A stretch of 33,248 bases of DNA from Massilimicrobiota sp. An134 (lineage in GTDB: Bacteria; Bacillota_I; Bacilli_A; Erysipelotrichales; Coprobacillaceae), in contig NZ_NFLH01000028.1 in assembly GCF_002160815.1 (NCBI RefSeq), positions 1 to 33,248 on the forward strand, in the 5' to 3' direction. The notes beneath the pieces are model-generated. The model was given only the letters and a program-made list of their open reading frames with translations. It did not search any database and was not told where the DNA came from. Below are positions 6,651-33,248 of the stretch, in pieces (the first letter of the stretch is position 1; each line of letters opens with the position of its first letter). The position numbers and the translations under genes are program-made.

Positions 6651-7538
6651 ATGAAAAAATATTTATGTGTAGATGTTGGTGGGACAGCCATTAAAATGGG
6701 GATATTAGATGAAGAAGGAACAATTTATGAAACAAAGAAAGTCAAAGTTCCTCCAACAATAGAAGAGATGTACCAGGTTATCGTTGATGCTTTCTTTCAT
6801 GAAGATAATTTAGAAGGTGTTGCTTTAAGTATGCCAGGTGCAGTAGATAGTGAAAAGGGAATTATTGGTGGTTCTAGTGCTATTGATTATATTCATGGAC
6901 CACATATTAAAGAAGATTTAGAAAGTCGTTTACATGTTCGTGTCGAAATGGAAAATGATGCCAATTGTGCGGCATTGGCTGAAGTCTGGAAAGGGGCTGC
7001 CAGTGATGTTGATGATTGTTGCTTTATTGTCAGTGGAACAGGTATTGGTGGTGCCGTTGTCAAAAATCGCCGTATTCACAAAGGGGTACATTTACATGGT
7101 GGAGAGTTTGGTTATATGATTGCTCAATTTGACTTTGATACGCATGAAATGCATACATGGTCTGAAATGGGATCAACAGTTGCTGTTGTGAAAAATGTCG
7201 CAAAAGCAAAAGGAATTGATGCTTCCTCATTAAATGGTCAGGACATCTTTGATCATTATCATGATGATCCTATTTATGAAAAATATGTTGATCAATATTA
7301 TTATGTTTTAGCTAATGGTATTTATAATTTACAATATGCCTATGACCCTCAAAAAATAGTCATTGGTGGTGGTATTAGTGCAAGAAGTGATTTACTTGAT
7401 GAAGTGAACCAACGTTTAGATGTAATCTTTAAGACTTTTACACATGCGAAAGTTCGTCCAACCGTTTTCACATGTCAATATCAAAATGAAGCTAATTTAT
7501 TAGGAGCTTTATTTCATTTCTTCACAGTGAATTCATAA
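6651..7538 (+). CDS. ROK-family sugar kinase
   Basis: A cytoplasmic ATP-dependent sugar kinase of the ROK family (glucokinase / N-acetylhexosamine / beta-glucoside kinase group). ATG 6651 is chosen because AAGGTGA (6639-6645) is the ribosome site; an in-frame GTG at 6642 lies within it. In 295 residues the phosphate-binding DVGGT (8-12), the catalytic ENDANCAALAE (101-111, Asp103), GTGIGGAVV (129-137) and HGGEFGY (149-155) are visible. The CxCGxxGCxE zinc motif of most ROK kinases is absent, so assigning glucose as the substrate would be unsafe. No DNA-binding domain is present, so it is not a ROK repressor. It is co-transcribed with the next gene, 33 bases downstream. Confidence 0.88.
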   Translation: MKKYLCVDVGGTAIKMGILDEEGTIYETKKVKVPPTIEEMYQVIVDAFFHEDNLEGVALSMPGAVDSEKGIIGGSSAIDYIHGPHIKEDLESRLHVRVEMENDANCAALAEVWKGAASDVDDCCFIVSGTGIGGAVVKNRRIHKGVHLHGGEFGYMIAQFDFDTHEMHTWSEMGSTVAVVKNVAKAKGIDASSLNGQDIFDHYHDDPIYEKYVDQYYYVLANGIYNLQYAYDPQKIVIGGGISARSDLLDEVNQRLDVIFKTFTHAKVRPTVFTCQYQNEANLLGALFHFFTVNS

Positions 7539-7571
7539 AAATAATATATAATAATATAGAGGTGATGATTC

Positions 7572-8270
7572 ATGGAAAAAATAACACCTACTGTTGATTC
7601 TAAGTTAAGACATATTGTCAAAGTTCCTCAATGTATATATGATGTATCGGGAATCACAATTAATGGGAAAAGGATTAAATCTTTAGTGTTTTCTACTGAT
7701 GTGGCAGTTATTTCAAATTGCAATGCTGATGCCGTGATAGCTGTTTATCCATTTACCCCTACAATGCAGATTACAAATGCTATTATTGAAGTGGCACAAA
7801 AGCCTGTTTTTGCTGGAGTGGGTGGAGGAACAACATCAGGACCAAGAGTGAATAAAATCGCTTTAGATGCTGAATTACATGGGGCTACAGCTGTTGTCTT
7901 AAATGCACCGACTAAGACAAAATTTGTACAGGAGCTATCTCAGATTATTGATATTCCTATTGTTTTAACAGTTGTTTCTACTGATGAACCATTAGAAGAA
8001 AGAATGTTACATTCAGGAGCAAGTATCATTAATGTATCAGGTGGTAAAAAGACAGTAGAAATTATTAAAGCATTACGTAAGATTGATCGAGATTTTCCAA
8101 TTATCGCAACAGGTGGACCAAATGAAGAAACAATTAGAGAAGTCATTGCAGCAGGAGCGAATGCTGTAACGTATACACCACCATCAAATGGGGAAATATT
8201 TAAAGAAATGATGGAGCGCTATCGTATACAATGTTCACACCATGATGATGACGATGACGACGATGATTAA
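7572..8270 (+). CDS. Predicted TIM-barrel protein with Asp-rich tail
   Basis: A 232-residue soluble protein with ribosome site GAGGTGAT. Alternating beta-strand/helix segments (VLNAPTK, IPIVLTVVS, IIATGGPNEETIREVIAAGANAVTYTPPS) resemble phosphate-binding TIM barrels such as those of the NanE/ThiE/IGPS superfamily, with a GG-rich loop (GVGGGTTSGPR, about 83-93) and a second ligand-type loop VSGGKK. I do not recognise the precise family; members in related genomes may be labelled simply as hydrolases, and no substrate can be given. The C terminus is unusual: His-His followed by eight aspartates, a plausible metal-binding tail. Co-transcription with the ROK kinase suggests a role in sugar or sugar-phosphate metabolism, by inference only. 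Confidence 0.8.
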   Translation: MEKITPTVDSKLRHIVKVPQCIYDVSGITINGKRIKSLVFSTDVAVISNCNADAVIAVYPFTPTMQITNAIIEVAQKPVFAGVGGGTTSGPRVNKIALDAELHGATAVVLNAPTKTKFVQELSQIIDIPIVLTVVSTDEPLEERMLHSGASIINVSGGKKTVEIIKALRKIDRDFPIIATGGPNEETIREVIAAGANAVTYTPPSNGEIFKEMMERYRIQCSHHDDDDDDDD

Positions 8271-8293
8271 ATAATCACATACGATTTAAAAAT

Positions 8294-8328
8294 GAGATTT
8301 TCAAATATATTTGAGTATCTCTTTTTTT
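8294..8328 (+). terminator. Terminator after the TIM-barrel gene
   Basis: GAGAT (8294-8298) pairs with ATCTC (8317-8321), with an inner TCAAAT/ATTTGA stem, followed by T7. Confidence 0.75.
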
Positions 8329-8505
8329 ATGATCATTGATATTAATGAGTCTACTTTTATATATGCTTACAAAGAAATATTTTATAAAAGATACCAAGGC
8401 TATATGTGTATAAAAGAATTTTTCGTGCAATAAACGATATATTGAAGTCTGGTTAAAAATAATAGACTTTATCAATATCATTTCTATTTATGCAATACAA
8501 AAATA

Positions 8506-8534
8506 ATGACTTTTGTTTCTTTATTCGCTATAAT
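8506..8534 (+). promoter_or_regulatory. Promoter of thyA-dfrA-plsC
   Basis: ATGACT (8506-8511), a 17-base spacer and TATAAT (8529-8534). It lies inside the open frame that extends upstream of thyA and so supports the later GTG start. Confidence 0.6.
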
Positions 8535-8552
8535 AAGCAAGAGGTGAAAAAT

Positions 8553-9440
8553 GTGAAACAGTATTTAGATATGTGTCGTTATATATTAGAACATGGGGAA
8601 GATCGTGATGATCGTACAGGAACGGGAACACGTAGTGTTTTTGGTTATCAGACACGTTATGATTTACGTGAAGGTTTTCCTTTGATGACAACAAAAAAGA
8701 TGTTTTTAAGACCTATTGCAGAAGAGCTTTTATGGTTTATTAAGGGAGATACAAATATTAAGTATTTAGTTGATAGAAATGTCAAAATATGGAATGAATG
8801 GCCTTATGAAAATTTTAAGAAATCCAAAGATTTTCATGGTGAAAGTTTAGAAGAATTTGTTGCGAAAATAAAAGAACTGCCTGCTGATGATCCATTTGTT
8901 GTGAAATATGGAGAATTAGGGCCTGTTTATGGAAGACAATGGCGTAATTTTAATGAACAAGGTATTGATCAATTACAGAATTTAATTGATTCTTTAAAAA
9001 ACAATCCTTTTTCAAGAAGACATATTGTCAGTGCATGGAATCCTGTAGAAGTGGATCAGATGGCTTTACCACCATGTCATGCTTTTTTACAGTTTTATGT
9101 GTCAGCTGATCGCAAATATTTATCTTGTCAGTTATATCAAAGAAGCGCTGATACATTTTTAGGTGTTCCTTTTAATATAGCATCTTATGCTTTAATGACA
9201 GCTATGTTAGCACAGGTGTGTGGATATGAAGCCAAAGAATTTATTCATACCATTGGTGATGCCCATATTTATAAAGATCATTTTGATGTTGTGAAAGAAC
9301 AAATTTCTAGAGCACCACTTCCATTATGTCAATTAAAGTTAAATCCTGAAGTGAAGTCTTTATTTGATTTTACAATTGATGATATACATATTGAAAATTA
9401 TCAAAGTCATGGAAGATTATATGGGAAGGTGAGTGTCTAA
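8553..9440 (+). CDS. thyA: Thymidylate synthase
   Basis: It methylates dUMP to dTMP using methylenetetrahydrofolate. The start is GTG 8553, ten residues into a recognisable ThyA N terminus ([11 protein letters not shown]). GAGGTG (8541-8546) is correctly placed, and the predicted promoter at 8506-8534 would fall inside any longer version. The 295 residues include [19 protein letters not shown], the catalytic Cys175 in [12 protein letters not shown], and [13 protein letters not shown]. Its stop TAA overlaps the dfrA ATG (TAATG). Pairing with dfrA is functional: ThyA yields dihydrofolate, which DfrA reduces. Confidence 0.95.
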
Positions 9441-25758: not shown

Positions 25759-26037
25759 GTGACTTATAAAGTATCTAAAATTTTAAAAGTATGTGCTTAT
25801 ATTTTCTTAGTTGGGAGTATCTTACAACAAGGATATACAATAGCGATGAATACATCTTATTTAAATACTGGTGAGCTAATGGGAGTAGAATCCATGCTGA
25901 TGATGTTGTGGTCTTGTTTTATCTCCTTTTTACTTTCATTAATCATCTATGGATTTGCAGAAATTATTGAATATTATGAAATGAAAAAAACAAAAGATAC
26001 AGATATCTTGACAAATGAGAATAATGATGTAAAATAA
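25759..26037 (+). CDS. Small membrane protein, paralogue 2
   Basis: 92 residues from GTG 25759. Two hydrophobic segments (about 10-30 and 47-68) are followed by a charged C-terminal tail (EYYEMKKTKDTDILTNENNDVK). It is paralogous to the protein at 25512-25727 (SKILKVCAYIF versus DKLKVCSYLF; SLIIYGFAEIIEYYE versus SLLIYGCSYIVKLYE). The distance between the ribosome site and start is set by a G8 run. The second T-box promoter lies in its last codons. Function unknown. Confidence 0.6.
   Translation: MTYKVSKILKVCAYIFLVGSILQQGYTIAMNTSYLNTGELMGVESMLMMLWSCFISFLLSLIIYGFAEIIEYYEMKKTKDTDILTNENNDVK
26008..26035 (+). promoter_or_regulatory. Promoter of the thrS T-box operon
   Basis: Perfect TTGACA (26008-26013), a 16-base spacer and TAAAAT (26030-26035), inside the end of the preceding gene. 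Predicted start near 26042, right before the T-box leader. Confidence 0.65.
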
Positions 26038-26049
26038 CTTTACAAGCAA

Positions 26050-26252
26050 TGATTTAGGATATGTTTTTATAAGTGATTGTTTAGAGAAAAGATGGTTGGT
26101 GAAAATCTTTGATAGCTTATAGAAATACTCCCTAATAGGCTACACTCGAAAGAGATTGTCGTAGAACTGCGTTAAAGTTTTGAGGTTATCTGATAGATAA
26201 TGAATAAAGGTGGTACCACGAGATTTCGTCCTTTGGATGAAATCTCTTTTTT
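26050..26252 (+). promoter_or_regulatory. T-box riboswitch of thrS, probable Thr specifier
   Basis: A T-box core AAGGTGGTACCACG (26207-26220) and an apical GGTTGGTGAAAA (26094-26105) are clear. TTAGG (26053-26057) pairs with CCTAA (26131-26135), and ATAAG pairs with CTTAT as in the first leader, enclosing the specifier loop. The codon is less certain than in the Phe leader. ACT (26127-26129, Thr) matches the downstream thrS but lies two bases past GAA, while the triplet directly after GAA is ATA. The 5' AGTA partner of the S-turn is not seen. The leader controls the GNAT gene and thrS together. Confidence 0.88.
26220..26252 (+). terminator. T-box intrinsic terminator of thrS operon
   Basis: GAGATTTCGTCC (26220-26231) pairs perfectly with GGATGAAATCTC (26235-26246), followed by T6. 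An open reading frame that runs through it is rejected in favour of the ATG at 26269. Confidence 0.88.
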
Positions 26253-26268
26253 ATTAAGGGGGTCAGAT

Positions 26269-26784
26269 ATGGAAAAAGGACATTTAGAATTTCCTGATTA
26301 TCATCATGAAGAATCAATGAAAGCATTGATTCAAGCTATGAAAGATGATCATAATCCTTTTGGTGTCAATGGTGCAGGTTCTTTTGAAAGCTGTTCAAGT
26401 TATCAGGAATGGATTTCAAGAGAAAAGAAGAATCATTTAGGTATTGAATTAGAAGATGGTTTTGTTCCAGGGACAGAGTTTTTATATGTTGTCAATAATC
26501 AAGTGATTGGTTGTATTCATATCCGTCATTGCTTAAATGAGGCTTTATTCAAACATGGTGGACATATTGGCTATTCCATTCATCCTGATTATCGTAGGCA
26601 GGGATATGCTACAGATATGTTGAAACAGGCACTTCAATTTTGTCAACAATGGGAAATTGAACCCGTATTAATCACTTGTCATCAAGATAATGTGGCTTCA
26701 AGAAAGACCATTGAAAAATGTGGTGGTGTTTTTGAAAATCAATATGATGATATTTTAAGATTTTGGATAGGAGGAAAGAAATAA
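26269..26784 (+). CDS. GNAT-family N-acetyltransferase
   Basis: 171 residues from ATG 26269, with AAGGGGG (26256-26262) as ribosome site. The open frame extends further upstream only through the T-box terminator, so the earlier start is rejected. Acetyl-CoA-binding motif A is HIGYSIHPDYRRQGYATDML (Q/RxxGxG/A type), preceded by VVNNQVIGCIHIRH and followed by the motif B-like VLITCHQDNVASRKTIEKCG. That last pattern is typical of the RimJ/RimL-like or predicted small-molecule acetyltransferase GNATs. The acceptor is unknown. The stop overlaps the thrS ATG (TAATG), so it is coupled to thrS and controlled by threonine charging. Confidence 0.87.
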   Translation: MEKGHLEFPDYHHEESMKALIQAMKDDHNPFGVNGAGSFESCSSYQEWISREKKNHLGIELEDGFVPGTEFLYVVNNQVIGCIHIRHCLNEALFKHGGHIGYSIHPDYRRQGYATDMLKQALQFCQQWEIEPVLITCHQDNVASRKTIEKCGGVFENQYDDILRFWIGGKK

Positions 26785-28520
26785 TGAGAGATTTTATTAA
26801 TGAAGAAGCTTTAAATACTTTAAATCATTCATGTGCACATGTGATGGCACAGGCAGTTAAGCATTTATATCCTCAAGCTAAATTCTGGGTTGGACCAGTT
26901 GTGAGTGAAGGATTCTACTATGATATTGATTTAGGTGACCAGGTGATTACTGATGATGATTTACCTAAAATTGAAAAAGAAATGAAGAAAATCTGTAAAG
27001 ATGGAAAAAGAATTATCAGAGAAGAAATTTCTAAGGAAGAAGCTTTAGAAATGTTTAAAGATGATCCTTATAAGTTAGATTTAATTCAAGGTTTAGAAGA
27101 TGGACATATTACATGTTATCGTCAAGGAGACTTCGTCGATTTATGTAGAGGGCCACATGTAGAAACTGTCAAATTATGTAAGAATTTTAAATTATTAAAA
27201 CATTCTGGGGCTTACTGGAAAGGTGATAAAAACAATAAAGTTCTACAAAGAATTTATGGTGTTTGTTTCCCAACAGCTGAAGAGTTACAGGAACATTTAG
27301 ACTTTTTAGAAGAAGCTAAAAAAAGAGATCATAAAAAATTAGGAAAAGAACTTGATTTATTTATGATGAGTGAATATGCACCAGGTATGCCATTTTTCTT
27401 ACCACATGGGATGTTATTAAGAAATACATTAGAACAATACTGGTATGAAGAACATGCCAAAGAAGGATATCAGTTCATTAAAACACCAATCATGATGTCA
27501 AGAGAGTTATGGGAAACTTCAGGACATTGGGATAACTATAAAGAAAATATGTATACAAGTGAAGTTGATGAGCGTGAATTTGCGATTAAACCAATGAACT
27601 GTCCAGGAAGTATGCTTGTTTATAAAAATGGTTTACATTCTTATAAAGATTTACCACTTCGTATGGGAGAACTTGGACAAGTGCATAGACATGAAGCCAG
27701 TGGTGCTTTAAATGGTTTATTTAGAGTACGTACTTTTACACAGGACGATGCACATATCTTTATGACACCTGATCAGATTGAAAGTGAAGTTGTACGTTTG
27801 ATTTCATTTATTGATCGTGTTTATTCTAATTTAGGCTTACCATATGATATTGAATTATCAACTCGTCCAGAAGAAAAATATATTGGAGATTTAGAAATCT
27901 GGGAAAAGAGTGAAGCAGCCTTAGCAGCAGCATGTCAAGCAGCTGGAAAAGACTTTAAAGTCAATCCTGGAGATGGAGCTTTCTATGGTCCAAAACTTGA
28001 CTTCCATGTCAGAGATTCTTTAGGAAGAGTTTGGCAATGTGGAACAATCCAATTAGATATGAACTTACCAGAAAGATTTGATTTAACATATGTGGATCAT
28101 AATGGTGAAAAAGTGAGACCAGTTATGTTACATCGTGTGATCTTTGGTTCTATTGAAAGATTTATTGGTATTTTGATTGAACACTTTGCAGGGGCATTCC
28201 CATTATGGTTAGCACCAACACAAGTCAAAGTGATTCCAGTTAAAAATGAATATCATTTAGAATATTCAAAAGAAGTCTATAAACTTCTAGAAGACAAAGG
28301 AATTCGTGTGGAATTAGATGATCGTGAAGAAAAATTAGGTTATCGTATTCGTGAAGCACAGATGAAGAAGATTCCATATCAGCTAGTCTTAGGTGATAAA
28401 GAAAGAGATGAAAGAACTGTGACTTTTCGTCAATATGGTGAAAAAGACCAAATTACTGTATCATTAGATAAATTTGTAGATATGGTCTTAAAACAAATTG
28501 AAGAAAAATCGGTAATCTAA
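26784..28520 (+). CDS. thrS: Threonyl-tRNA synthetase lacking the TGS domain
   Basis: It charges tRNA-Thr. The start ATG 26784 follows AGGAGG (26769-26774). The protein has 578 residues, about 60 fewer than the usual 640, because it begins directly at the editing domain; the N-terminal TGS domain is missing. Editing residues are kept: HSCAH (15-19) and DLCRGPH (119-125). The class II core has MNCPGSM (Cys273), DDAH (His324) and PVMLHRVIFGSIERF (His near 450), the three zinc ligands. A C-terminal anticodon-binding domain follows (about 475-578). No upstream in-frame TGS sequence exists, since the gene before it is the GNAT. Its last codons form the left copy of a direct repeat. Confidence 0.95.
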   Translation: MRDFINEEALNTLNHSCAHVMAQAVKHLYPQAKFWVGPVVSEGFYYDIDLGDQVITDDDLPKIEKEMKKICKDGKRIIREEISKEEALEMFKDDPYKLDLIQGLEDGHITCYRQGDFVDLCRGPHVETVKLCKNFKLLKHSGAYWKGDKNNKVLQRIYGVCFPTAEELQEHLDFLEEAKKRDHKKLGKELDLFMMSEYAPGMPFFLPHGMLLRNTLEQYWYEEHAKEGYQFIKTPIMMSRELWETSGHWDNYKENMYTSEVDEREFAIKPMNCPGSMLVYKNGLHSYKDLPLRMGELGQVHRHEASGALNGLFRVRTFTQDDAHIFMTPDQIESEVVRLISFIDRVYSNLGLPYDIELSTRPEEKYIGDLEIWEKSEAALAAACQAAGKDFKVNPGDGAFYGPKLDFHVRDSLGRVWQCGTIQLDMNLPERFDLTYVDHNGEKVRPVMLHRVIFGSIERFIGILIEHFAGAFPLWLAPTQVKVIPVKNEYHLEYSKEVYKLLEDKGIRVELDDREEKLGYRIREAQMKKIPYQLVLGDKERDERTVTFRQYGEKDQITVSLDKFVDMVLKQIEEKSVI

Positions 28521-28534
28521 AATAACACGGAGTT
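28511..28534 (+). repeat. Direct repeat at thrS 3' end, putative attL
   Basis: GGTAATCTAAAATAAC (28511-28526) matches 33059-33074 exactly, and the next eight bases match with two differences. Weaker similarity continues through the following hairpin. The repeat covers the last thrS codons and stop, so insertion would leave thrS intact. It fits the attachment site of a site-specific integrase. Confidence 0.65.
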
Positions 28535-28559
28535 GTGGGTTTTTGGATTATAAGAACTG

Positions 28560-28588
28560 GTGGGAAGAATAGCCTTCCCACTATTTTA
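28560..28588 (+). terminator. Terminator of thrS
   Basis: GTGGGAAG (28560-28567) pairs with CTTCCCAC (28574-28581), followed by TATTTT. A diverged counterpart stands at 33106-33135 beside the right-hand repeat. Confidence 0.65.
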
Positions 28589-28927
28589 AAACTGTATAGG
28601 AGAATCATGATTTGATGATGAGTCATGGTTCTTTTTTTCTGTTCTTTCTATCAGTTTATCTAACTTCAGATTGATTTCCTGAGTCAAATCATCCAGTTCA
28701 TCTGCATATTCATATACCATATTGAGTTTGTACAGTATATCTTCCAGCACTCGCTGTCTATTGACAATGCTTATATCATGATCATCCACTATCAGTGCAT
28801 AAATTTTTTTCTTGTCATCATTCTGTAAAATCTCCTCTGTTTTTGATTGGATATATGTGATATGTTGAGTCCTTATTGAGACAGTACATGATTCTCGTTC
28901 TGAAGCGATGCCAGTTGAGGTATCCAT
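28586..28927 (-). pseudogene. Remnant of a minus-strand gene, frameshifted
   Basis: An open frame of 113 residues runs leftward toward thrS. Its C-terminal half looks protein-like: LEDILYKLNMVYEYADELDD, then a lysine/glutamate-rich helix and a Ser/Asp/His tail. No ribosome site precedes its first ATG. In another minus frame just upstream (28980-28873) a coherent stretch reads RYLKQIHQATETQFKWIPQL and then SLQNENHVLSQ before a stop. This suggests one gene broken by a frameshift near 28875. The family is not recognised; a mobile-element protein is plausible from the position. Confidence 0.35.
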
Positions 28928-28974
28928 TTGAACTGTGTTTCAGTAGCTTGATGGATTTGTTTCAGGTAACGCGC

Positions 28975-29204
28975 ATGAAACAAAGAAAGAATGATATTTA
29001 TCCTATTTTTTATAAGGCAGAAGAGGTGACTAAGATTTTAGATGTATCAAAGCCAACAGCTTATAAAATCATCCAAAGCCTTAACCAAAGAATAAAGATG
29101 AAGGATACATCACGATTGCAGGAAGAGTCAATAAGGATTATTTCTGGAAATGCATGTATGTTGGAGAACAGCATCGTGGAGTTGTAAATGGATATGTCAG
29201 TTAA
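28975..29204 (+). pseudogene. Excisionase-like helix-turn-helix gene, frameshifted
   Basis: From ATG 28975 the frame reads MKQRKNDIYPIFYKAEEVTK, then ILDVSKPTAYKIIQSLNQ, a MerR/excisionase-type helix-turn-helix found in small integrative elements. After Gln at 29086-29088 the frame is lost. The expected wing continues in another frame from 29091 as NKDEGYITIAGRVNKDYFWK and on to a stop at 29202-29204. Adding one base in CAAAG (29086-29090) restores a single protein of about 76 residues. So this looks like a one-base deletion in an A run, or a sequencing error there. The stop region overlaps the start of the putative integrase fragment. Confidence 0.6.
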
Positions 29205-29271
29205 TAAGTATACGAAAAAGATAAAGGTTAATGGTGGCTATAAGGAAGTCACACAGTATGGAAGAGTATAG
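29188..29271 (+). pseudogene. Possible integrase N-terminal fragment
   Basis: A 27-residue frame from ATG 29188 (or 29194) reads KYTKKIKVNGGYKEVTQYGR before TAG 29269-29271. This resembles the arm-type DNA-binding start of tyrosine recombinases, and the overlap with the end of the excisionase-like gene is the usual xis-int arrangement. Nothing resembling the catalytic domain (R-H-R-Y) follows before the IS element, so if correct the integrase is lost. The assignment rests on a short segment and on context. Confidence 0.35.
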
Positions 29272-29499
29272 GGAATATAGTGAAAGAAATTGGGCATCTA
29301 CAATAATAGAAGAAATTATCCTTTTTAGGTGTAGACATTTATATATATTGGTTATGAGAATTGTTGATGATTTTCGGAAAAACGGATGAAGATAATATTA
29401 GACATGATAGCCTGATAAAATATACAAATTTATGAAAGTGTGAGGATGATAAAGTAAATAATAGCTCAATAAATAAAAAGGTGAAATGAAAATTTAAAT
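29272..29499. other. Degraded spacer without a clear gene
   Basis: AT-rich DNA with no long open frame or ribosome site followed by a protein-like sequence. A 43-residue + frame (29258-29389) containing ASTIIEEIILF and LVMRIVDDFRKNG may be debris of the element's genes, but it could be chance. It lies between the integrase fragment and the palindrome at 29500. Confidence 0.4.
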
Positions 29500-29562
29500 T
29501 CCACTTTGTATGTTTAAATTCTACTCTTCTTGTGGGTGTAGAATTTCAAATTACAAAGTGGA
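29500..29562. repeat. Interrupted palindrome left of IS30
   Basis: TCCACTTTGTA (29500-29510) pairs with TACAAAGTGGA (29552-29562), and inside it AAATTCTAC (29516-29524) pairs with GTAGAATTT (29538-29546), with a 13-base loop. TTTAAATTCYAC also occurs as a direct repeat at 29493-29504 and 29513-29524, exactly 20 bases apart. No T run follows, so it is a poor terminator. It resembles transposon-end or insertion hot-spot DNA. Confidence 0.7.
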
Positions 29563-29699
29563 GTTTTGTATTACAAAAAATCATCTCAAATATTGATTTT
29601 TTATACGTCAGATCTTAAAATGAACCTGTAAGAAGCAATTTGACTCATTTATGAGAGTATAGTAAAGCTAGGGTCAAATTTTCTGTTTTTTCGCAATGT
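29563..29699. other. Noncoding spacer with a possible hairpin
   Basis: No gene is seen. AATTTGAC (29637-29644) and GTCAAATT (29673-29680) form an 8-base inverted repeat followed by a T-rich stretch, which could be a weak terminator. Confidence 0.35.
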
Positions 29700-29766
29700 G
29701 AAATTCCACCCCGTGATGGTCTTATTTATTTGTATATTATGGGTATCCCTGTGTTTTGTTTATACT

Positions 29767-31071
29767 TTATTTTTTAGATAAGAGTGACTGAGTCAGATTG
29801 ATCTTATCTGGGTCAATATGTTCGATTCCAAAGTAGCTTGCAACTTCTTTGGAAAACAACAAAGTGAAGATAAAAAATGGTGTTTTGTCATTCAGCTTTG
29901 GACGAGCATACGAATTAATGTGAGACATCATCAAATTGATGTCTTTTTGCATATAAAGATCAAATGGTTTTCCTTTCGGTACGATTCTTCTTATAAATTC
30001 ATGATTAACTTCGCAGTCACCTTTTTCAAACGGAGAACTAGGATGACAGTAAAACATATATGTTCTTCTGTTTCCGTCTTCATCAAACTCAATGGCTTTT
30101 GGATTGGAGAACTCAGGTCCATTATCTGCCAGGATGACAGGAAACAGCTTCATGAACATATCTCTTCCAAGATAATCATAAATGTCGTTGAAGACATCAA
30201 TGACAGACTGTGCGTCATTATATTCTCTTCTAAAAGCAATCATAAATGTTGGCACTGTAAAATGAATTGTAAGCAGACAGGCACCACCTTTAGTGCCTTC
30301 AACTGTATCAATCTGGACAACAGGCATATCAGGTTTTTCCTTCATAAAATTTTCAAAATCTTCATATCTTCTTCCATCCAGACATTTTGAATCAATTTTG
30401 TATCTTGAAGACTTTTTTCTTTTTTTATAGGTTACCTGTCGAGGCAGGTCGATATTTCTCACTTTCAATATACCAGCATCAATAATCTTATAAAGAGTCT
30501 TTTCACTGAACATGATCTCATTCTTATGATGAATGTAGACATGATGAATGGATTGTCCCTGCTGGGCAATCAATGGATAAAGTAGCTCATTAAGATGATT
30601 GATTTCTTCTTGAGTAATGATGATACCTTTACGTGATTCAGAAAGTTTTTCTTGATATTTTTTATTGGCATCAAGTGCATAATAGATATGCTTTGTCAAA
30701 GTGCATTTCCTCAGATCAGGACAACCGTTGCAGACATATGGTGGTTTAGAAAGCTTAGGACAGATTTCTTCCACATAGTTGACGCATTCGTAGATGCAGC
30801 GAGTACAGGATCTGCAGAGCTGAGATTTCATAACTGGACAGTTATCGCAAGCAGAATTGCGTTCTTTGCATGTATGTCTGTTAAGACAGTTATTGAACGA
30901 ACGACCAACTGTACCAATTTTACGAACAGAAAGATTCTTTTTGACTTCCTTTGAGATTGTTGTACAATCCTTATCCAGTTTTTTGGCAATCGCCTTGAAA
31001 GATTCATTATTTTTCAGACTGTTTTCAATTGTGATTCTATCATGAGCAGTCAAATGTTTCTGATTAGCCAT
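29767..31071 (-). CDS. IS30-family transposase
   Basis: A 434-residue DDE transposase. The start is the ATG at 31071-31069, six bases after GGAGGTG (31084-31078); the open frame extends three codons into that ribosome site. An N-terminal helix-turn-helix (LTAHDRITIENSLKN, FKAIAKKLDKDCTTISKEV) is followed by a cysteine-rich insert (about 62-123, with CDNCP, CRSCTRC and CNGCPDLRKC) that probably binds zinc. The catalytic triad is intact: Asp255 in VVQIDTVEG, Asp316 in ILADNGPEF and Glu354 in GDCEVNHEFIRR. It has no frameshift or stop, so the element may still be mobile. It sits between the decayed integration genes and the nuclease-like gene. Confidence 0.95.
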   Translation of the reverse strand: MANQKHLTAHDRITIENSLKNNESFKAIAKKLDKDCTTISKEVKKNLSVRKIGTVGRSFNNCLNRHTCKERNSACDNCPVMKSQLCRSCTRCIYECVNYVEEICPKLSKPPYVCNGCPDLRKCTLTKHIYYALDANKKYQEKLSESRKGIIITQEEINHLNELLYPLIAQQGQSIHHVYIHHKNEIMFSEKTLYKIIDAGILKVRNIDLPRQVTYKKRKKSSRYKIDSKCLDGRRYEDFENFMKEKPDMPVVQIDTVEGTKGGACLLTIHFTVPTFMIAFRREYNDAQSVIDVFNDIYDYLGRDMFMKLFPVILADNGPEFSNPKAIEFDEDGNRRTYMFYCHPSSPFEKGDCEVNHEFIRRIVPKGKPFDLYMQKDINLMMSHINSYARPKLNDKTPFFIFTLLFSKEVASYFGIEHIDPDKINLTQSLLSKK

Positions 31072-31154
31072 GATGAGCACCTCCAGTAGAAGGGATACCC
31101 ACTATTATTATAAAAGTTTGCAGGATTAAATTCTATCATCTAATTTGTAAAATT

Positions 31155-31188
31155 AAATTCCATATAAATTGATTTAGGGATGGAATTT
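31155..31188. repeat. Hairpin at the right end of IS30
   Basis: AAATTCCAT (31155-31163) pairs perfectly with ATGGAATTT (31180-31188) with a 16-base loop. A related TTAAATTCTA lies at 31126-31135. Several AAATTCYA motifs in this end may be subterminal transposase-binding repeats. Confidence 0.65.
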
Positions 31189-31249
31189 CGTTTTTCAATT
31201 TACGCAATAAATAAAAAATATTCATTGTATTATAAAATATGCTATTTTA

Positions 31250-31280
31250 TTGAAATGATATGATATACTTTAGTTATAAT
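31250..31280 (+). promoter_or_regulatory. Promoter of the nuclease-like gene
   Basis: TTGAAA (31250-31255), a 19-base spacer and TATAAT (31275-31280). The -10 falls inside the longer open frame and so argues for the start at 31302. Confidence 0.5.
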
Positions 31281-31301
31281 AGGTTAAAAGGTGATGACAA
31301 A

Positions 31302-33026
31302 ATGCATATTTATCTATGGACAGATTATGAAGAAGAAAATAATTCGGAAATAGCAAAGCAAAATCCAAGCTTGATGAATTACATTGAAGATATGGATGAT
31401 TCATATTATTTAGAGATTCCATTTGGTGAGATAAAGAAAGATTTAGAAATGCACTTTAGTTCAAAATACAAAGGATTGCTAATGACTTATATTGGGATGT
31501 TTACTATGAAGAAAGATAAAGACAGCATATCCATTAAAAATGATGACATTACATATTCTGTTATGGAGAGTAATATAAAGTTATGTTTAGAAACTGAATC
31601 AAATATCATTGAGTTTGAAGAAAAAGTTGATTTTTTATGTTCGGATTACTATGGAGATATTATGCTATTATTAAGATTTCATGACAGTCAAATGAAATTT
31701 ATCATTACAAAGCATGGAAAGATGTTTTGGTTTAAGAACAATATGGATATTAATAAAAAACCAATTGTCTATAATAGTGATTTTTTTGAAAATAAAAAAA
31801 TATCAATCAGAAAAATAATGAGCATATATTCATATGTTGTTAGATTTTATGATGAATATATGGCTATTCCATACATGGACTCACAAAAAAGAAAAGCATT
31901 AGAGGAAACTCAAGATATCATATTATCTCAGGTGGCAAACAAAGATATTATTAAATACTTTGATAATGTAAAAAATGAATACTCAATTTTCTTAACATTA
32001 AATAATACAAAAAATGGGAAAATAGCAAGATATCTAATAGATAAATACCATATGGAATATAATATGGTACCTAATTTTTTTATGGATGATAAAACATTAA
32101 ATATTATACTCTATGAACCAGATGAGAAGGAGATACATCAGTATTACGAATATATCGTTCAAACGCATCGTAAATATTCTTCGTATTCAATATATAATAT
32201 TGATATTGATTTATTATGTAAAGCTATGCAAAAAAGTAATAATTATTTGGCTAAAAAGAAGATTAATAGCTATTCTTTTAGAACTCTGAATGATGTAGAG
32301 TATGCACAGTGTCTGGGAATAATAAAAAATATATTATTGACATTTCCTTTAAATGAAGAGGAACTGTTTGCTTTTGTTAGTAGAATAAATGAAATTGCTT
32401 ACAAAATTCCTAAATATAAATATGAAAAACAATTGCCTGAAACACCGCTTTATCCAAATACACCAAGATTACGTGAAATTGAAGATTTTTATTGGCGTAC
32501 ATATTTCAAAAATATAAAATATATTATTAGCGATAAGATTCAAAATAGTGATGAATTGACACCAGAAGAAATAGAATACAATAATGTGATGCAACCATAC
32601 CAAGAAAAGAAGAAAGAGGTTAATAACATGTTAGCTAGTATGGAATCAACATTTCTTTCTGAAATGATAGACCGTGGATTGTATAATAATAAATGGAAAA
32701 ATGAACAGGAATTATTTAAAGTGGTAAGAAGTTTATATTCAGATGCTATCTATCAATATCACTCAAAATTTCTAGAACTTCAATCATTAGATATTTTTAT
32801 TCCGTCAATAAACTTAGGAATTGAATATCAAGGAGAACAACATTACATACCAATTGATTTCTTTGGTGGTGAAGATGGATTGAGGAAAAGAAAAGAACTG
32901 GATGAAAAGAAATTAGAGAAATGTAAAGCCCATGGAGTTATGCTGTTGTATTGGAAATACAATGAATTAATAACTAAAAAAACGGTTAAAGAAAAAATTG
33001 ATGATTTTATTAATAATATAGAGTAA
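31302..33026 (+). CDS. Large protein with C-terminal PD-(D/E)xK-like nuclease domain
   Basis: 574 residues. ATG 31302 has AAAAGGTGAT (31286-31295) as ribosome site; an earlier in-frame ATG at 31260 precedes the predicted -10 box. The first 400 residues match no family I know: charged, mostly helical-looking, with few glycines and no signal peptide or membrane segment. From about 460 the chain looks like a Vsr/DUF559-type endonuclease fold. Glu468/Glu470 (NEQELF) lie in the first helix, Asp497 in SLDIFIP, Glu508 and Gln510 in GIEYQGEQHY, then FFGGEDGLRKRKELDEKK and a VMLLYWKY strand. The order E, D, ExQ fits a metal-dependent nuclease with the usual lysine of ExK replaced. Position between the IS element and the right-hand thrS repeat marks it as cargo. 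A defence role is inferred from domain and context, not shown. Confidence 0.75.
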   Translation: MHIYLWTDYEEENNSEIAKQNPSLMNYIEDMDDSYYLEIPFGEIKKDLEMHFSSKYKGLLMTYIGMFTMKKDKDSISIKNDDITYSVMESNIKLCLETESNIIEFEEKVDFLCSDYYGDIMLLLRFHDSQMKFIITKHGKMFWFKNNMDINKKPIVYNSDFFENKKISIRKIMSIYSYVVRFYDEYMAIPYMDSQKRKALEETQDIILSQVANKDIIKYFDNVKNEYSIFLTLNNTKNGKIARYLIDKYHMEYNMVPNFFMDDKTLNIILYEPDEKEIHQYYEYIVQTHRKYSSYSIYNIDIDLLCKAMQKSNNYLAKKKINSYSFRTLNDVEYAQCLGIIKNILLTFPLNEEELFAFVSRINEIAYKIPKYKYEKQLPETPLYPNTPRLREIEDFYWRTYFKNIKYIISDKIQNSDELTPEEIEYNNVMQPYQEKKKEVNNMLASMESTFLSEMIDRGLYNNKWKNEQELFKVVRSLYSDAIYQYHSKFLELQSLDIFIPSINLGIEYQGEQHYIPIDFFGGEDGLRKRKELDEKKLEKCKAHGVMLLYWKYNELITKKTVKEKIDDFINNIE

Positions 33027-33058
33027 ATAATTTTATCAAAATATATTCATATTTTTAT

Positions 33059-33082
33059 GGTAATCTAAAATAACTCGGGGTT
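33059..33082 (+). repeat. Direct repeat of thrS 3' end, putative attR
   Basis: A second copy of GGTAATCTAAAATAAC followed by TCGGGGTT, against ACGGAGTT on the left. Farther on, GGGTTTTAGATT and a GGAA/TTCC hairpin echo the sequence after thrS. It stands 32 bases after the nuclease-like gene and defines a 4,548-base unit with the copy at 28511. Confidence 0.65.
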
Positions 33083-33105
33083 TTAGGGTTTTAGATTCTA
33101 TATTA

Positions 33106-33135
33106 ATACGGAAAAAAATATCTTCCTGTATTTTT
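33106..33135 (+). terminator. Terminator after the right-hand repeat
   Basis: ATACGGAA (33106-33113) pairs with TTCCTGTAT (33123-33131) with one bulged T, followed by T5. Its place relative to the repeat matches the thrS terminator on the left. Confidence 0.6.
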
Positions 33136-33141
33136 GTATAC

Positions 33142-33168
33142 AATAAAACCCACAGATAGTCTGTGGGT
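33142..33168 (-). terminator. Hairpin terminating a transcript from the right
   Basis: ACCCACAGA (33148-33156) pairs perfectly with TCTGTGGGT (33160-33168). On the minus strand the stem is followed by TTTTATT, so it should stop a leftward transcript entering from beyond the window. Confidence 0.6.
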
Positions 33169-33248
33169 CAGTAAAAAGCTTTAGCGTAGTGATAATGTTA
33201 AAAACCTCCTGTATAATAGTATTGCGGCCTGGAAACTGCAAAACTAAA

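Follow-up and report, generated by a model that had tools for sequence, protein, structure and literature searches.

The nuclease gene and its surroundings

The window (the whole stretch of DNA analysed, 33,248 nt of contig NZ_NFLH01000028.1 from Massilimicrobiota sp. An134) carries near its right end a 574-codon open frame on the forward strand (31302..33026; ATG at 31302, stop codon at 33024-33026). The frame, already proposed by a sequence-only reading of this DNA, was confirmed: a Shine-Dalgarno-like ribosome-binding site, AAAAGGTGAT, lies immediately 5′ of the ATG. The gene is the sole copy in the 2.56-Mb genome, and the contig ends at 33248, shortly past its stop codon. The same reading had given the gene its own promoter, for which the evidence is weak. 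The TTGAAA (31250-31255) and TATAAT (31275-31280) hexamers are 19 nt apart, outside the 16-18 nt spacing used in our promoter scan, and promoter-like sites in the region of the gene were no more frequent than in shuffled sequence (11 observed versus 19.7 in shuffles).

Downstream of thrS, the window contains in order an ISL3-type insertion sequence (IS) end, a short helix-turn-helix (HTH) ORF, an IS30-type transposase gene, the nuclease gene and a second IS-like end. The first of these (28510..28963, reverse strand), which from its transposase sequence we take to belong to the ISL3 family, is inserted at the 3′ end of thrS and has several more copies in the genome as well as copies in a congener. 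The IS30-type transposase gene (29767..31080, reverse strand; HTH_38 match) is separate from the nuclease gene, lies upstream of it and has partial copies elsewhere in the genome. The second IS-like end (33059..33100, forward strand) is 83% identical to positions 28511-28552 and probably marks where a further insertion begins, at the end of the contig. In three congeners the DNA 3′ of thrS differs from that found here; judged by eye, it looks like a cysteine synthase gene. Given the flanking IS pieces and the different thrS-adjacent DNA in congeners, we place the nuclease gene in an accessory, IS-rich insertion and not in an intron or a conserved operon. No Rfam intron was found within 26000-33248, and no host gene is interrupted around the nuclease gene. 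The earlier description of the gene as cargo of a small element beside an IS holds in that IS fragments flank the gene; the element itself has no defined ends.

A 42-nt direct repeat (28511-28552 and 33059-33100) was considered as a pair of att sites bounding an element at the 3′ end of thrS. This idea was rejected because the left repeat turned out to be one end of an ISL3-type IS that is present in multiple copies, and because relatives run from thrS into another gene. In the short ORF at 28876-29187, the HTH part (residues 45-75) resembles excisionases of ICEBs1/Tn916 type (NCBIfam E 1.4e-5, PHROG 3.6e-9); on this similarity the ORF is likely a remnant of an integrative element. Farther upstream, a T-box leader match (26040-26236; Rfam E 5.7e-18, 85.2 bits against a gathering score of 93) precedes a GNAT-like ORF and thrS.

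The C-terminal nuclease domain

Residues 462-574 (32685..33023, forward strand) were assigned to a Vsr/EDxHD nuclease domain from PHROG matches, invariant alignment columns, an AlphaFold2 model and structural matches. PHROG families, including some annotated as HNH endonuclease and homing endonuclease, matched residues 450-568 at E = 6.6e-28. In an alignment of 67-68 relatives covering phages, plasmids and many bacterial phyla, seven positions were invariant (E468, D497, E508, G511, Q513, H514 and D534), and Y509, Q510, G522, K537 and L548 were at least 90% conserved. The order E...D...H...D is that of the EDxHD family (PMC3943268); the candidate catalytic codons are those of E468 (32703-32705), D497 (32790-32792), H514 (32841-32843) and D534 (32901-32903), all on the forward strand.

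The AlphaFold2 model shows an endonuclease fold in which pLDDT averages more than 93 across residues 451-570 and the elements run helix-strand-strand-strand-helix-strand-helix. The best Foldseek match in the PDB was the catalytic domain of the homing endonuclease I-Bth0305I (3r3p, probability 0.99). VIA-align matched Vsr (1cw0, Z 11.2, rmsd 2.7 over 108 aligned residues; 1vsr, Z 10.1) and 3r3p (Z 10.1); other restriction-type folds reached Z 4-6, and the same list holds mitoribosomal proteins at Z 7.7-11.2. Alignment and model together strongly support the assignment of the C-terminal ∼110 residues to a Vsr/EDxHD nuclease domain with a restriction-endonuclease-like fold. A sequence-profile search of the PDB returned unrelated kinases only, and the whole protein had no significant match in Pfam, NCBIfam or PADLOC. 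The nuclease domains of relatives gave weak matches to the candidates PDC-S69, HEAT_CxxC_PD-DEXK and mREase_II.

The sequence-only reading had offered a PD-(D/E)xK or a Vsr-like fold, with Glu468, Asp497, Glu508 and Gln510 as the active site. The Vsr-like alternative is the one borne out. At the position of the (D/E)xK lysine of canonical PD-(D/E)xK nucleases the protein has E508-Y-Q510, with no lysine. The four named residues are correctly placed and conserved, but the set is incomplete, with H514 and D534 equally invariant. Nor is Q510 a Lys-to-Gln change particular to this protein, as had been thought: the Vsr-type family does not use the PD-(D/E)xK lysine, and Q510 and Q513 are found family-wide. 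Vsr carries a zinc site with Cys/His ligands in its nuclease domain; this site is missing here, since residues 462-574 contain a single Cys (C541). The active site of Vsr is formed by the pair D51/H69 (PMC11879112), of which D497/H514 would be the equivalents by order and spacing (17 residues here versus 18 in Vsr).

The N-terminal parts and the family tree

The large unassigned N-terminal part noted earlier was confirmed as such, having no match in Pfam, NCBIfam or PADLOC. For residues 1-213 (31302..31940, forward strand) no relative was found, and the predicted structure has pLDDT mostly under 50. Residues 1-446 gave weak matches only against 395 genomes of the class; two that were checked were judged by eye to be DNA gyrase B-like proteins and were rejected.

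A predicted ferredoxin-like domain follows (residues ∼225-320; 31974..32261, forward strand), which is common to a small set of proteins from Clostridioides difficile phage-plasmids, Clostridia, Melainabacteria MAGs and viral contigs. It was linked to the relative L121 (L numbers denote our set of relatives) by BLASTP at 3e-4, was linked again by iterative profiles among the relatives, and matched the 574-residue protein at P = 7e-6 in a profile-profile comparison. A first structure model gave a block at pLDDT 72-90 for residues 231-290; a second, separate model gave the same core at a mean pLDDT of 57. The best VIA matches were ACT-like domains (Z ≤7.5, on a low-confidence model), which may reflect only a common arrangement, and we keep the label predicted ferredoxin-like with none closer. 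A scan of viral contigs using one middle domain found nothing. The AlphaFold2 model further predicts a helical linker at residues ∼388-457 (32463..32672, forward strand), with low pLDDT over 388-413.

A tree of 67 nuclease domains split into two groups at 100/100 support; the underlying alignment is short, and inner forks are poorly resolved. One group (36 rows) comes nearly all from viral contigs and the other (31 rows) is cellular, plasmid-borne or mobile and includes the 574-residue protein. Among sequence clusters of the N-terminal parts, a large phage cluster includes zinc-finger-type proteins (e.g. L140), and four zinc-finger matches were found in another phage relative, L104. The same nuclease domain is shared by ‘intron-encoded protein B’ of Twort and by the ‘group I intron-associated VSR homing endonuclease’ of Terranova, each located inside an interrupted terminase gene. 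Within the cellular/plasmid clade, the Clostridia relatives L007/L008 and L015 carry NUMOD1 or I-HmuI NUMOD-like modules directly after the nuclease (at L007:8460-9020 and L015:8408-8806), and L007/L008 branch off basally or nearly so. These modules point to homing-type members within this clade too.

Proteins of C. difficile phage-plasmids, such as WP_009894871.1 and WMU95128.1, likewise combine the middle domain with the nuclease, WP_009894871.1 being 31% identical over residues 240-574. They differ from the protein described here in having no counterpart of the first ∼200 residues, and their genes lie between antirepressor and tail genes. Compared with I-Bth0305I, which has the same fold and, judged by family name, the same E...D...H...D pattern, our protein has 574 residues, an orphan N-terminal region, a ferredoxin-like middle domain and no intron. 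Compared with Vsr, which also shares the fold and the Asp/His pair, it is much larger and is found in a mobile setting.

Possible role of the protein

We propose that the gene product is a DNA endonuclease made of a single chain and borne on mobile DNA. The Vsr/EDxHD domain would cut DNA, presumably with D497 and nearby acidic residues holding Mg2+ and with H514 as a candidate general base. The orphan N-terminal region and the ferredoxin-like domain may identify the DNA to be cut or sense the condition under which cutting is permitted, and the long helical linker would join these front parts to the nuclease. The benefit to the carrier could be a restriction-like, single-gene defence.

Interference with incoming or competing DNA is the leading reading of this role, which we hold at slightly less than an even chance. 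The single-gene anti-phage role first raised from the sequence is suggested by defence-type neighbours of relatives; the 574-residue protein itself matched no defence model in PADLOC. In favour of defence, its clade stands apart, at the 100/100 split, from the phage group of intron and zinc-finger homing proteins. On four alphaproteobacterial plasmids (L124, L236, L237 and L238) the nuclease is 53-81% identical with varying upstream genes, hence no conserved partner gene. We also counted for defence DUF2726 (PF10881), a domain of the same fold class; predicted defence proteins that join it to AbiJ-NTD3 have been described (PMC3710099). DUF2726 matched half of the aligned relatives weakly (best E 2.8e-6) and did not match the 574-residue protein.

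Defence-type genes lie beside four relatives that carry the middle domain or are close to it. Genes for a McrB-like AAA protein and McrC are directly 5′ of a middle-domain nuclease gene on a viral contig (L042:3826-8387); L016 has genes for ApeA-like and LA2681-like HEPN proteins and the candidate PDC-S01 as neighbours; in L234 the nuclease gene (7081-8151) directly adjoins a KAP NTPase gene with a PDC-S49 match (8151-9230); and L009 neighbours a type II restriction-modification pair. The arrangement in L234 resembles a two-gene operon. Another relative, L142, adjoins a Tn916-type excisionase.

Around the nuclease genes of eight plasmids, defence-type genes were present in six of the 12-kb windows, which hold TIR, two Abi genes, Mrr, a SMODS CD-NTase near a ThiF-family gene, HEPN/Toprim and a DNA methyltransferase. 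Control windows elsewhere on the same plasmids had them in 4 of 32 cases (Fisher p = 0.001, or p = 0.005 when two reverse transcriptases are counted as defence). This small, post hoc comparison, with categories set by annotation words after the focal windows had been seen and with non-independent windows from the same plasmids, is suggestive of enrichment near the plasmid relatives. A further plasmid, from Vibrio, had no defence-type neighbours at the nuclease gene, nor had the C. difficile phage-plasmids, which carry close relatives. These cases, together with the NUMOD modules of L007/L008 and L015, count against the defence reading.

A doubtful but serious competitor is that the protein is, or derives from, a free-standing homing endonuclease whose N-terminal region serves to bind one long and specific site, with cutting as the step that spreads the gene by gene conversion. 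Apart from Vsr, I-Bth0305I is the closest functional relative with a solved structure, and the Twort and Terranova proteins place the same domain in group I intron endonucleases. Moreover, a large, previously unrecognised outgroup of EDxHD/Vsr homing endonucleases has been reported in phage group II introns, many of them unannotated, with a C-terminal domain of ∼100 residues (PMC12350094). The position of the EDxHD/Vsr-like domain is the same in our protein; however, that outgroup has CapR/DUF4379-like modules, and the clade studied here splits from the phage group. The NUMOD modules of L007 and L015 bring homing features into the clade itself, whereas the 574-residue protein has no Pfam match to NUMOD or to zinc fingers of the kind seen in L104, and it falls outside the phage homing clade. 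The absence of an intron and of an interrupted host gene at the locus also argues against homing, although free-standing homing genes are compatible with such absence. Finally, the relatives occupy scattered accessory sites and not one conserved site.

It is quite unlikely that the gene is a decaying passenger, foreign DNA stranded between IS copies and either not expressed or inactive. IS fragments on both sides, the remnant xis-like ORF and the weak promoter would fit such a history, but the 574-codon frame is intact, its ribosome-binding site is good and every invariant residue is kept. A role in cellular DNA repair or mismatch cleavage, as for Vsr, the best structural match, is very improbable given the patchy distribution (any match in 3 of 148 relatives), the lack of another convincing match to its N-terminal part in the 395 genomes of the class, the missing zinc site and the mobile settings of the gene and its relatives.

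The defence reading could be extended to the whole cellular/plasmid clade, whose members would then be undescribed single-gene restriction systems separate from homing endonucleases, with a ferredoxin-like (ACT-like) sensor gating the nuclease and swappable N-terminal recognition parts. We regard this wider proposition as fairly unlikely. The EDxHD/Vsr domain has so far been known mainly from repair and phage homing; if the proposition is true, a separate clade with variable N-termini and defence-rich surroundings would mean that the same catalytic module is used in DNA interference, and many unannotated proteins would gain a testable function and named active-site residues.

A conserved two-gene cassette on the four alphaproteobacterial plasmids was also considered and rejected, as the upstream genes are homologous only in two sphingomonads. 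The upstream protein of these two, which has no Pfam match, begins with IFYSWQSD, a start that we take to recall TIR-like proteins.
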